From an uncultured Mucilaginibacter sp. (GTDB lineage: Bacteria > Bacteroidota > Bacteroidia > Sphingobacteriales > Sphingobacteriaceae), in contig CAITEP010000020.1 of NCBI GenBank assembly GCA_903891475.1, positions 1 to 64,000 of the forward strand: DNA of 64,000 bases. The letters are read 5' to 3'. The notes beneath the pieces are model-generated. The model worked only from the letters and a program-made list of their open reading frames with translations, searched no databases and was not told the DNA's origin. The translations under genes were made by a program, and so were the position numbers. Below, one piece after another: positions 27,309 to 38,709 of this stretch. Every line of letters starts with the position of its first letter. Position 1 is the stretch's first letter.

Positions 27309-27484
27309 CTAGTAGCTAGTAACTAGTATTAATTAGCTAGATAAATTTCAAAAAATCAGCAGTCAATCGCACCATTACTATAGCTATCTGCATAAAGGGT
27401 ATTAAATCTATCTCCTTAAAATTTTTCCAGAGACATTAAATCGCTTTAGAATACTAGAGACTTGATACTATTTACTAGCTACTA
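27309..27484. repeat. Copy A of a ~176-bp element with terminal inverted repeats
   Basis: Left TAGTAGCTAGTAACTAGTATTAATTAGCTAG; right end reverse-complements to TAGTAGCTAGTAAATAGTATCAAGTCTCTAG; interior shared with 31398-31574. Confidence 0.85.
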
Positions 27485-27627
27485 ACGATTGGAGGGTGAG
27501 GCTTTATTAGATGCTAGTAGCCAGTATCAAGATGCTAGATAAAAATTAACCTAACTTTACAGCAACCTACAACCTTCAACTTATCAAGATTTGAGTATTG
27601 AGATTTTAGAGGTGAGAAAAATTAAAG

Positions 27628-27759
27628 TCAAAACATCCTACAACCCCCAAAAACCACACAACCTACAACCCACACCAACCCATCCCACAACCCACAACAT
27701 ACAACCACCAACATACAACACGCGCCCCACAACCTTCAACCTACAACCCACAACCAAAT
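27628..27759. repeat. G-depleted ACAACC-rich low-complexity tract
   Basis: CCTACAACCC/CCCACAACC motifs; G-free 27628-27721 and 27725-27759. Confidence 0.8.
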
Positions 27760-27847
27760 GATACAGGTTACCCAAAACCATGACCTTCGTCAAAATTGGG
27801 GCTAAGCTATTCCCCTAATTTTGGTAATCGTTGTTTTTGTACATGGC

Positions 27848-28255
27848 ATGAAAAAAATCATTGTTTCGGGTTTAATTGTTGGCTGCATATTATTTATAGT
27901 AAGCTATGGCGGTTTGTTTTTAGCCATCAGGTTAGTACCATCGCTGTTTATTGAATACAATAACCCGCTTTTTAAGTCGGACGGGAGTCGCGATGTATTA
28001 TTTTACCTGCATGCCTTCATCATCAGCTTCGCACTTTCCTGGTTTTGGGATAGGTTTAAAGGCATGTTTAAAGGCTGGTTTGTTGTACGCGGACTAGAAT
28101 TTGGCCTTGTATACTCCCTTATTGCCCTGCTGCCCGTTATGTGGATCTCCTTTAGCTCGTTAGATATTACCGTAACCATGGTAGTAAGCTGGTTTGTGTA
28201 CGGCTTGTTTCAAGCCGTAGTTGCAGGAACCGTTTTTGCTAAAATTAACCCCTGA
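27848..28255 (+). CDS. Hypothetical membrane protein
   Basis: Four hydrophobic segments; ATG at 27848 preferred over 27821. Confidence 0.55.
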   Translation: MKKIIVSGLIVGCILFIVSYGGLFLAIRLVPSLFIEYNNPLFKSDGSRDVLFYLHAFIISFALSWFWDRFKGMFKGWFVVRGLEFGLVYSLIALLPVMWISFSSLDITVTMVVSWFVYGLFQAVVAGTVFAKINP

Positions 28256-28281
28256 TACGCAATAATCCCTATCCAAGTTAA

Positions 28282-28907
28282 TTGAAGGAAATGATGCTTC
28301 GCCCTATAATATGTACCTTAACCTTATTGCTCTCCACCTGTTTTGTATGTTTTTCGCAACCTTTCGAAAAGACAAGCGAAACAAGACATTGGCTGGTAAC
28401 AGAAAACAGCAACCTGAGGGTAAACGGCAGCACAAATATCAATACCTTTTCCTGCCAAATTCCGGCATATAACAATACTGATACCCTGATTATTGTACGT
28501 AACAAGGGTACCAATGCCATAATTTTAAAAGGCTGTATCAGTTTAAGTGTGCAAAGCTTTGATTGTAAAAACCCGATCATGACGCACGATTTACGCAAAA
28601 CCCTCAAAGCCGAACAGTATCCACTGCTGCATATCTATTTTTTATCGCTCGATAAATTGCCCGAACTCTCCAATCATCCCGAAAGTATTACCGGCTTGGT
28701 TGATATTGAAATTGCCGGGGTAAAAAAAGGTTCGAAGTAAAATATCTAATAAGTGAGGACGCGCCAAAATCAATTCATTTATTGGGCTCACGCGATGTAA
28801 ACTTTTCCGATTTCCATTTAATCCCTCCCCGCAAACTAGGCGGCATGATCAAAACCAACGACAAACTCAGCGTTGATTTCCATTTGAGGATGCTTACCTG
28901 CAATTAG
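28282..28907 (+). CDS. YceI-like protein, full length only via a -1 frameshift at an A7 tract (frame 0 stops at 28740)
   Basis: GTA AAA AAA GGT in frame 0; the -1 frame continues KRFEVKYLISEDAPKSIHLLGSRDVNFSDFHLIPPRKLGGMIKTNDKLSVDFHLRMLTCN*, aligning with the C-terminus of the next YceI protein. Confidence 0.7.
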
Positions 28908-29156
28908 TTTTTTCAGCAAAATATTTTTTGCTAATCGGGCTCAAATTGCCAAAATAATTTATTGAAAATTCTCTAAAAATCAGTCCATTTTTTACCAAAA
29001 TATTATCATATATGTCAAAATAATGATGTTTTAATATAAATAATTTAACAAAATATCCAATTAGATTAAAAAATGATAATAGTCATATCTGGGTGTTTAC
29101 TCCGTCATATTTAGGATAGATAGAAGGTTGCAACTTTGGGTATAAATTAAAAGCAA

Positions 29157-29759
29157 ATGAAAATTATAAATAACAAATTAATAATAGTGATCACCATCAT
29201 GGCGGTTTTCCTGACCATGAACGCCCGTAAATTAAGGGCTCAAGCCTATAAACTAGTACCCGGCAAGGAGGTAAGCATTAAAGTACTAGGATTATCAAAC
29301 GTGCACGATTGGACTGAAGTTACCAGTGCCATTGAGAGTACAGGTGAATTTAAAATAGGTGATGAAAATCAAATTCAAGCCTTGGAAAACTTCAATTTAG
29401 CTGTAACCGCCAAAAGCTTAAAAAGTGAGCACGATATGATGGATACCCGAACCTATAAAGCCATCAAAGCCGATCAGTTTCCAAAAATCACCTTCAAGCT
29501 CGAATCGGCAGTAATTACCCCGGTTCAAAAGGCCAAGGTAAACATTAAAGCTACCGGAAACTTAACCATAGCAGGTGTTACCCAAAGCGTTGTTTTGGAG
29601 GTGGTAGCTACCGTAAACGCCGATAACACCATTACTTGTACAGGAAGCAAAAAAATAAAACTCACTGATTTTAAAATAGACCCACCCAGTTATTTGCTAG
29701 GTGCCATGAAAGTAACAAACGACCTTACTATTCAATATAATTTAACTTACAAAAAATAA
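29157..29759 (+). CDS. YceI family protein
   Basis: VSIKVLGLSNVHDWTEV, KSEHDMMDTRTYKAIKADQFPKITFKL, KLTDFKIDPPSYLLGAMKVTNDLTI. Confidence 0.9.
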   Translation: MKIINNKLIIVITIMAVFLTMNARKLRAQAYKLVPGKEVSIKVLGLSNVHDWTEVTSAIESTGEFKIGDENQIQALENFNLAVTAKSLKSEHDMMDTRTYKAIKADQFPKITFKLESAVITPVQKAKVNIKATGNLTIAGVTQSVVLEVVATVNADNTITCTGSKKIKLTDFKIDPPSYLLGAMKVTNDLTIQYNLTYKK

Positions 29760-29780
29760 ATAACCTTTAATACTAAGAAT

Positions 29781-31142
29781 ATGAAAACTAAATTTTTTAC
29801 ACAGCTCGGCGTCCTTATAATTTTGGGGCTTAGCTTCATACCCTTCTGCTCAAAAGCACAAGATTTGCAATTTATTAGACCGAATGACCAACGTGGCATC
29901 AATGTATTCGAAACCTCAAAGGCTGATACTGTTAAGTTTACAGGTTTAAAAGTTAAAGTTGGTGGTAATTTCGAATTGACATTTCAGGGATTAGGACAAT
30001 CAAATACGGATGTACCGCTTACTAAAACCGGGTATGTTGGCGATGTTAATAGCTTAATTCCGCTATCACACGCCTTTCAATTGCCAATGGCTAACTTAAA
30101 TTTCGATATTCAATTGGCCGATGGTATCAGGATGAACCTAACCAACTACTTGGCTTCCAGGCACCACGAAGATAGCTGGGTAAAAGGAGGCTATATTCAA
30201 TTTGATAAACTGCCATTTTTGCACAGTCAGGTTATTGATAATATCATGAAGAGTGTTTCTATCAGGATTGGTCAGAATGATGTAGACTATGGCGACCAAC
30301 ACTACAGAAGAACCGACGGTGGTTCAACCATATACAACCCATTTGTTGAAAACTACATTATGGATGAATTCTCAACCGAATTGGGTGCTCAAGTATATTA
30401 CTTCCATAAATCAGGTTTGTTTGTAATGGGTGGCTTAACCGATGGCTTGCTAAACGAAACCGTAGTTGGCTTAACAAAAATAGATGCCAAAACAGGAGCG
30501 GTAAATAAATACGATCCTGCCATACTTGGTAAAGTTGGTTTCGATAAGCAACTAAACAAAGACTTTAGGTTGAGAGTAACAGGTTCAGTTTATACCGTAA
30601 ACAGCTCAAACAGCAGCACCTTGTTTGGTGGCGACCGTACAGGCTCACACTATTACAACTTGCTCGAAAACCAAGCGGTAGCAAACGCTACTACCTTGAG
30701 CGACGCGGTAGATTATAACTTTACCTCAGGCAGGGTAAACCCAGGCTTTAGCGAAGAAAACCATGCCTTTATGGGTAACGTACTTTTAAAATACAAAGGA
30801 CTTGAGTTTTTTGGAACCGCCGAAAATGCTACTGGTAGGGCCATTACCGAAACCACCAACCGTTGGGCCACCCAATATGCGGCCGATATAATTTACAGGT
30901 TTCCACAAGGTAAAGAAAATTTTTGGTTAGCCTATAGGTATAACACTTTATCAACCCGTTTGGCAGGCGTTGCCGATGTTACCGTAAACAGAAATGTAGG
31001 TTCATTCGGTTGGTTTTTAACCAGAAACATCATGATGAAATTGGAATATGTAAGTCAGGAATATCAAAACTATCCATCAAATAACATCCTAAATGGTGCT
31101 AAATTCAGCGGCTTCATGGCCGAAGCATCTATAGGCTTCTAA
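29781..31142 (+). CDS. Outer-membrane beta-barrel/porin-like protein
   Basis: Signal peptide; alternating amphipathic strands; terminal aromatic GFMAEASIGF. Confidence 0.7.
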   Translation: MKTKFFTQLGVLIILGLSFIPFCSKAQDLQFIRPNDQRGINVFETSKADTVKFTGLKVKVGGNFELTFQGLGQSNTDVPLTKTGYVGDVNSLIPLSHAFQLPMANLNFDIQLADGIRMNLTNYLASRHHEDSWVKGGYIQFDKLPFLHSQVIDNIMKSVSIRIGQNDVDYGDQHYRRTDGGSTIYNPFVENYIMDEFSTELGAQVYYFHKSGLFVMGGLTDGLLNETVVGLTKIDAKTGAVNKYDPAILGKVGFDKQLNKDFRLRVTGSVYTVNSSNSSTLFGGDRTGSHYYNLLENQAVANATTLSDAVDYNFTSGRVNPGFSEENHAFMGNVLLKYKGLEFFGTAENATGRAITETTNRWATQYAADIIYRFPQGKENFWLAYRYNTLSTRLAGVADVTVNRNVGSFGWFLTRNIMMKLEYVSQEYQNYPSNNILNGAKFSGFMAEASIGF

Positions 31143-31327
31143 ACGCTTTCATTGTTTTGTTTTTTAATTAATAGTAATCTAAATTGTTTGCCAAAGCTTC
31201 CAAATAACAAATTGGAGGCTTTGGTTTTTTATATGCGGATTAATAAAAAATTATAAATCAATCACATACAAATAAAAGTATTAAAAACTCACCAACCCAC
31301 CACCCAAATCAGGCTTCCCCTATTATT

Positions 31328-31574
31328 TAGTAGCTAGTTTTTAGTAGCTAGTAACTAGTATCAAGTAGCTAGTATTTATTGGCTTGTAACTATTATTTAG
31401 TAGCTAGTAACTAGTATCAAGTAGCTAGATAAATTTCAAAAAATCAGCTATCACTCGCACCATCACTAAAGCTATCAGTATAAAGGGTATTAAATCTATC
31501 TACCTAATAATTTTTACCAGAGACTTTAAATCGTTATTGAATACTAGAGACTTGATACTAGTTACTAGCTGCTA
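31328..31574. repeat. Copy B of the TIR element (core 31398-31574) with extra tandem left-end copies
   Basis: TAGTAGCTAGTAACTAGTATCAAGTAGCTAG at 31398-31428; right end reverse-complements to TAGCAGCTAGTAACTAGTATCAAGTCTCTAG; partial left ends at 31328-31397. Confidence 0.85.
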
Positions 31575-31716
31575 ACGAGTAGAGGGCGGGGGTGAGGCTC
31601 CCTCCATCATTCAATTGCAACAAAAACTATTTCATAAAACTTAATAAGCATTAAAAGGTTTATATAGTATCAACGGTTTGCATACAGCAAAAATCAGCGT
31701 TGTTTAATCCAAAAAA

Positions 31717-38464: not shown

Positions 38465-38569
38465 AATTATAGTTTCACCATGATTTGAAGGGTTTCAATT
38501 ATAATTTGAAAGGTTTTAATTATAATTTCTACGGTTTCGATTATAATTATGATGGCCTAAATTATAGTT
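38465..38569. promoter_or_regulatory. Helically phased array of the palindrome AATTATAATT upstream of a DUF5686-type gene
   Basis: Starts at 38465, 38497, 38518, 38539, 38560 (spacings 32, 21, 21, 21); related copy GATTATAATT at 38668. Confidence 0.6.
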
Positions 38570-38709
38570 TCGGATGATTAATTTTTCGGTTGTAATACAC
38601 TTAAAAGTAGTAGTGTTACATCATTTTGTCAGTGTGTACAACCTAACTTTTCGTTAAAAATCTTTCCGATTATAATTATTACAAAATTTAGCGTTATTTT
38701 GTAATAATT

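Follow-up and report, generated by a model that had tools for sequence, protein, structure and literature searches.

Short intergenic repeats that are built from heptamers or that fold into hairpins have been described in several bacterial groups. Beggiatoaceae, cyanobacteria and five Bacteroidetes have heptamers of the TAACTGA type near their start codons, other heptamer repeats have been noted in Bacteroidetes gaps, and a role in rearrangement has been suggested (MacGregor 2015, PMC4679880). These repeats form mainly direct arrays, with one inverted set among 170 in BOGUAY (PMC4679880). A second class consists of the repetitive extragenic palindromes (REP), including GTAG- and CGTC-tagged REPs, and the bacterial interspersed mosaic elements (BIME) and REP doublets forming hairpins (REPIN) related to them, which are linked to the REP-associated tyrosine transposases (RAYT) and have stems of 5-13 bp with defined tags (PMC3733652). 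Here, we have analysed 64,000 nt of contig CAITEP010000020.1 from an uncultured Mucilaginibacter sp. (the window, to which all plain coordinates refer), in which two hairpin-forming copies, A and B, carry arms made of degenerate heptamer arrays. Such heptamer-armed hairpins are related both to the TAACTGA heptamers and the cyanobacterial short tandemly repeated repetitive sequences (STRR) and to the REPs and miniature inverted-repeat transposable elements (MITEs), and neither definition fits them fully. The main interest lies in a genome-wide class of such hairpins and not in the local pair. In the open-licence literature that has been searched, no description has been found of inverted heptamer arms whose sequence turns over while the gap stays the same.

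Within the window, both copies are palindromic and non-coding, as proposed in an earlier note on this DNA, and occupy positions 27310-27485 (copy A) and 31398-31575 (copy B), with 89% identity over ~187 nt. The imperfect terminal inverted repeats (TIRs) claimed for them have likewise been confirmed (84-91% complementarity); these arms are degenerate heptamer arrays of the TAGTATC/AAGTAGC type, for which Tandem Repeats Finder (TRF) has reported periods of 7, 14, 21 and 35. The left arm of copy A (27310..27340, plus strand) comprises 4.4 heptads (TAGTAGC TAGTAAC TAGTATT AATTAGC TAG), and its right arm (27450..27485, minus strand) reads TTAGTAGCTAGTAAATAGTATCAAGTCTCTAGTATT as the reverse complement. 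The left arm of copy B (31328..31428, plus strand) runs through 14 uninterrupted, in-register heptads free of any indel (TAGTAGC TAGTTTT TAGTAGC TAGTAAC TAGTATC AAGTAGC ...), and the right arm lies at 31541..31575 (minus strand). The extra tandem left ends that had been described for this copy (31328-31397) do exist, as further heptads of the arm and not as separate ends, and the partial end reported near copy A is real, being an additional left-type arm (27507..27541, plus strand, GCTAGTAGCCAGTATCAAGATGCTAG). The enclosed interiors (27341..27449 and 31429..31540) are non-coding in copy A and align with each other at 88% identity across 123 nt. In the folding analysis, dinucleotide shuffles have folded far less well than either copy (z = -6.8 for copy B and -4.2 for copy A), and not one shuffle has been as good. 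Each copy forms a long stem that closes a loop of ~110 nt, and an Rfam scan of the window has returned no match at gathering scores. The similarity between the copies extends ~15-20 nt beyond the right arm into the GAGGG..GTGAGGC motif of another common repeat (GGAGGGTGAGG at 27486..27501, with its counterpart AGAGGGCGGGGGTGAGGCT at 31576..31595); this GAGAGGGCGGGGGTGAGGC repeat frequently abuts heptamer arms, in the window at both of these places and elsewhere at loci L012, L014 and L015.

A search for further copies has separated the interior from the arms. In the window's genome, the interior has been found in copies A and B only, and among 150 genomes of the family it has yielded short partial matches and no full-length match. 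Arm-matching places, on the other hand, number ~40 in the window's genome. Of 60 relatives, 16 carry the arm 22-mer (at most one mismatch), in as many as 123 copies per genome; these 16 all fall in the same genus, and reversed-pattern controls have stayed near zero. The suggestion that a lack of additional copies would mark a simple local duplication thus holds for the interior and fails for the arms; since the interior has no further copies in the genome, the A/B pair also looks like one heptamer-armed unit that has been duplicated locally. In the same way, the proposed MITE-like element or large folded RNA has been borne out in outline, as a genome-wide, non-coding palindromic family able to form long stems and not as a unit with a conserved interior: the interior conservation that had been taken as a sign of a mobile element or a large folded RNA is genuine but limited to the local pair, and it is the arms that recur.

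Beyond Mucilaginibacter, a scan of named genomes has located the same 22-mer in Algoriphagus and in metagenome-assembled genomes (MAGs), some labelled Spirosoma and others from Flavobacteriales, where neighbouring gaps hold other heptamer families; a phage vector has been considered, and the arms have been seen in one IMG/VR contig only. Family abundance is species-specific, as AAGTCTN arms reach their highest numbers in genomes G163, G153 and G160 and are absent from the window's genome, and GAGATNT arms reach theirs in G156 and in one genome from another family. The longest GAGATAT array among those seen here lies at C50:12771-12919 in G186, a genome from another family, and in G155 (L088-L090) heptamer arms alternate with a further repeat, ACATGGGTATTAATGGGTGTTTT.

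The arrangement of the arms has been surveyed at 48 named Mucilaginibacter loci with 104 arms, 101 of which lie outside predicted open reading frames. Neighbouring arms form inward inverted pairs in 43 of 47 cases, and in a set of 72 pairs the outer arms come within a median of 15.5 nt and 21 nt of the adjacent genes. The TAACTGA heptamers, the cyanobacterial STRR and the GGGAATC repeats of Xanthomonas (PMC4692102) are like the present units in being intergenic 7-nt tandem units near start or stop codons with a patchy taxonomy that includes Bacteroidetes; however, that class consists mainly of direct arrays, whereas inverted pairs around a loop are the rule here, many families coexist, and a gap is retained while its family changes. 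The palindromic, extragenic and species-specific nature, the many copies and the inverted pairs are shared with REPs, from which the present units differ in that their arms are ~24-100 nt long, 7-nt periodic and far apart. In G158, arms have been located in rRNA operons and on either side of tRNA genes and of the tRNA-23S spacer, so that parts of the rRNA spacer sit between arms; part of this tRNA-23S spacer is presumably the usual Bacteroidota antitermination region. The window's genome, too, holds an arm pair within its 23S-5S spacer.

Four gaps have been compared across Mucilaginibacter species, namely rpsN-rpsH, tpiA-prmA, era-der and the 23S-5S rRNA spacer. With periodicity called at a lag-7 z above 2.5 and the query genome left out of the count, 44 of 57 species-gaps at these sites are 7-nt periodic, mostly in the form of inverted pairs and often with unrelated heptamer families, compared with 5 of 60 random Mucilaginibacter gaps (Fisher P = 5e-15, which is overstated, as the species are related, some families are shared by descent and the 57 species-gaps are non-independent). 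At rpsN-rpsH, the pooled autocorrelation over 24 gaps reaches z = 21.6 at lag 7, 14.8 at lag 14 and 10.8 at lag 21, and for the 23S-5S spacer of 19 species the lag-7 value is z = 15.0; in both, the signal is missing at most other lags. Random 20-kb stretches have shown no general lag-7 signal, so that the periodicity is a property of particular gaps and not of the genome at large. The arms at rpsN-rpsH belong, over the 24 species, to the types TAGTATC, TTTCGGA, AGAGATT, AGTCTTA, AAAATTC and AAAGCTG and are nearly always inverted pairs, and 23 of the 24 gaps have a hairpin with a minimum free energy z below -2. The tpiA-prmA and era-der gaps have behaved in the same way. The hairpin thus seems to be kept in the gap while its sequence is replaced. 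Stop codons in all frames have been considered as the purpose of the arms, which would fit TAGTATC/AAGTAGC but not the TTTCGGA and AAAATTC families, which have no stop codons. The tpiA-prmA gap of G159 (L288) carries another kind of palindrome (CGTCATTGCGAGG...) that still forms a hairpin; the palindrome CGTCATTGCGAGGA..CGAAGCAATC occurs at L288 and at L255:5173-5403, in gaps of the same kind, and is like the CGTC-tagged REPs. In Mucilaginibacter, rpsH is preceded, past the hairpin, by a conserved ~55-nt leader, TTAACCGATGGAAGGTCG...GGAAACCACCATCA (L092 and its orthologues L093-L115), which has no Rfam match and is possibly an S8 autoregulatory RNA.

Comparison between genomes has also revealed how single units change. 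In SG564, M. lappiensis and OK268, interiors have diverged between retained arms; these interiors have polar ends (TATCACGAC...ATCTTGATA), measure ~48 nt and occur in either orientation, with a weak consensus. In the orthologous pairs L060/L201 and L076/L242, the interiors align only as reverse complements (scores of 22.5 and 13, with shuffle maxima of 7.5 and 4; P < 0.0005 each) and therefore have been inverted between intact arms; both orientations have been observed only between species and not within one strain. Indels between orthologues, all pooled because the length classifier is too crude to split arms from interior, have comprised 15 of 7 nt, compared with four of 6 nt and seven of 8 nt; at L135/L204 one arm differs by 28 nt, corresponding to four heptads, and mixed or intermediate heptamer arrays exist, e.g., at L371 and L280.

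On balance, we lean towards regarding copies A and B as members of a class of heptamer-armed fold-back repeats between Mucilaginibacter genes, with arms that slip, interiors that flip, families that spread and an intergenic role of the stem. The arms would gain and lose 7-nt units through replication slippage, and template switching or recombination across the hairpin would keep the two arms complementary and flip the interior. Since identical arms occur at many loci, copying between loci is needed, and the heptamer families would spread among spacers via gene conversion or some transposition activity. Because a stem is present in the gap of nearly all tested species and its sequence is not conserved, its role may be independent of sequence, which would be the most economical functional reading: the hairpin would act between genes, at the RNA or DNA level, in transcript processing, stabilising or insulating, and not as a terminator. 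Several points weigh against this reading. The four gaps had been chosen for an arm in the window's genome and for conserved flanking genes, so that they are not a random sample, and in ~13 of the 57 species-gaps no clear 7-nt periodicity has been seen; most of these still have a non-heptad hairpin. The recurring interior end-type in the SG564/M. lappiensis clade also fits a MITE.

The units could instead be conventional MITEs with heptamer-containing TIRs that are mobilised by a transposase encoded in the same genome, the gaps being tolerant landing sites filled by successive families, which we consider rather improbable. The units have TIRs, no coding capacity and many copies, the families are species-specific, units begin and end with TA, which is compatible with a TA target, the ~48-nt interiors described above have common polar ends in both orientations, and the era-der gap of two distant bacterial families holds just 5 and 9 nt. 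The enterobacterial MITEs RU-1 and RU-2 are similarly non-coding and intergenic, with TIRs and tens to hundreds of copies (PMC2759123). Measured against that description, the interiors here are mostly not common to loci, neither target-site duplications nor a linked Y1 transposase have been found, and a gap occupied in one species is often occupied in another by an unrelated sequence, contrary to what would be expected of a single MITE family. The target-site duplications, empty sites and transposase with matching ends that the earlier note had pointed to have not come to light: no duplication has been noticed by eye in ~20 inspected G169 units; the inspected orthologous alignments of close species, which have arms on both sides or are complex, contain no insertion/empty pair; and no transposase is linked to the arms, in a search that covered Y1 (PF01797) and not DDE transposases. 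Y1/RAYT transposases are present in most genomes examined, but none of nine inspected Y1 loci is flanked by paired heptad arms, as would be expected of a RAYT flanked by its own repeat, and in the window's genome one of the three Y1 genes lies within a few hundred nt of a heptad arm, on one side. Several of the nine lie among GC-rich repeats; IS200-like Y1 genes (~155 aa) at L309 (G169 C7) and others adjoin repeats of the TTTCTACAAA..TTTAACCCCTACCGGGTT type, which look like those transposases' own REPs. A MITE origin would, moreover, leave unexplained why dozens of unrelated TIR families are all 7-nt periodic, and rRNA spacer parts lie between arms in G158. The hairpin elements of sponge mitochondria, described as multiple invasions, also fill intergenic spacers; they are mitochondrial, and the likeness considered here is this filling of spacers by hairpins (PMC2800124).

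A purely mutational origin, in which heptamer slippage in spacers and hairpin-templated correction yield palindromic 7-nt arrays with neither function nor true mobility, appears unlikely. It would account for the 7-nt indels and the mixed arrays, and in many bacteria no class of long simple repeats is as over-represented as the heptamers, which has been ascribed to polymerase slippage (PMC4679880, PMC4692102). However, identical 22-mers at tens of places per genome and in other orders (Algoriphagus) need inter-locus copying, and the recurrence at the same four gaps is unexpected from slippage alone. Intrinsic terminators or invertible promoters (invertons) would be suggested by the strong hairpins and by inverted repeats with both interior orientations, the latter between species only; we regard both as very improbable. 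Gap orientation resembles the background, and convergent gaps are not enriched (4 of 52 arm gaps vs 34 of 225 others, P = 0.19), no T-run has been seen after the stem in the ~20 G169 units, and hairpins lie inside the ribosomal-protein operon and rRNA operons; as arms flank rRNA spacers, they are not strong unconditional terminators. For an inverton, the interior orientation shows no clear association with the direction of the genes (17 vs 7, P = 0.06).

Around the two copies, the DUF1801 protein gene (PF08818; 26906..27280, plus strand) lies upstream of copy A, which begins 29 nt past its stop codon. The gap of copy A further contains a second heptamer family of the CAACCTA type (27563..27760, minus strand; at 27563-27581 and 27633-27760, TRF period 7 with 14.6 copies). 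Between the copies are a YceI-domain gene (PF04264 by Pfam; 29157..29759, plus strand) and a porin-like gene (29781..31142, plus strand) that has no Pfam match and is so named in the earlier note only. In relatives, porin/YceI synteny has yielded no orthologous copy of the window pair, and the gene order differs. At 38472-38571, the window also holds 21-bp tandem repeats, ATTTGAAAGGTTTCAATTATA, in ~3 copies (TRF).

Conservation is normally judged by sequence, and here position and palindrome recur with the letters replaced, in spacers beside essential genes. For Mucilaginibacter, and perhaps for many Bacteroidota, we tentatively put forward, as a possibility that is still rather doubtful, that fixed spacers, among them the 23S-5S rRNA spacer and those of ribosomal-protein operons, carry sequence-independent stems whose arms are rebuilt from whichever heptamer family expands, the structure being conserved as the sequence turns over. 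If the stem is functional, its structure would be maintained by copying and correction and not by base-by-base compensation, and alignment-based RNA searches would miss it. If the repeats are selfish, they would represent a class of fold-back repeats with a 7-nt grammar and no obvious transposase that is widespread in Bacteroidota. The loci, species and heptamer families collected here make both the functional and the selfish reading testable.

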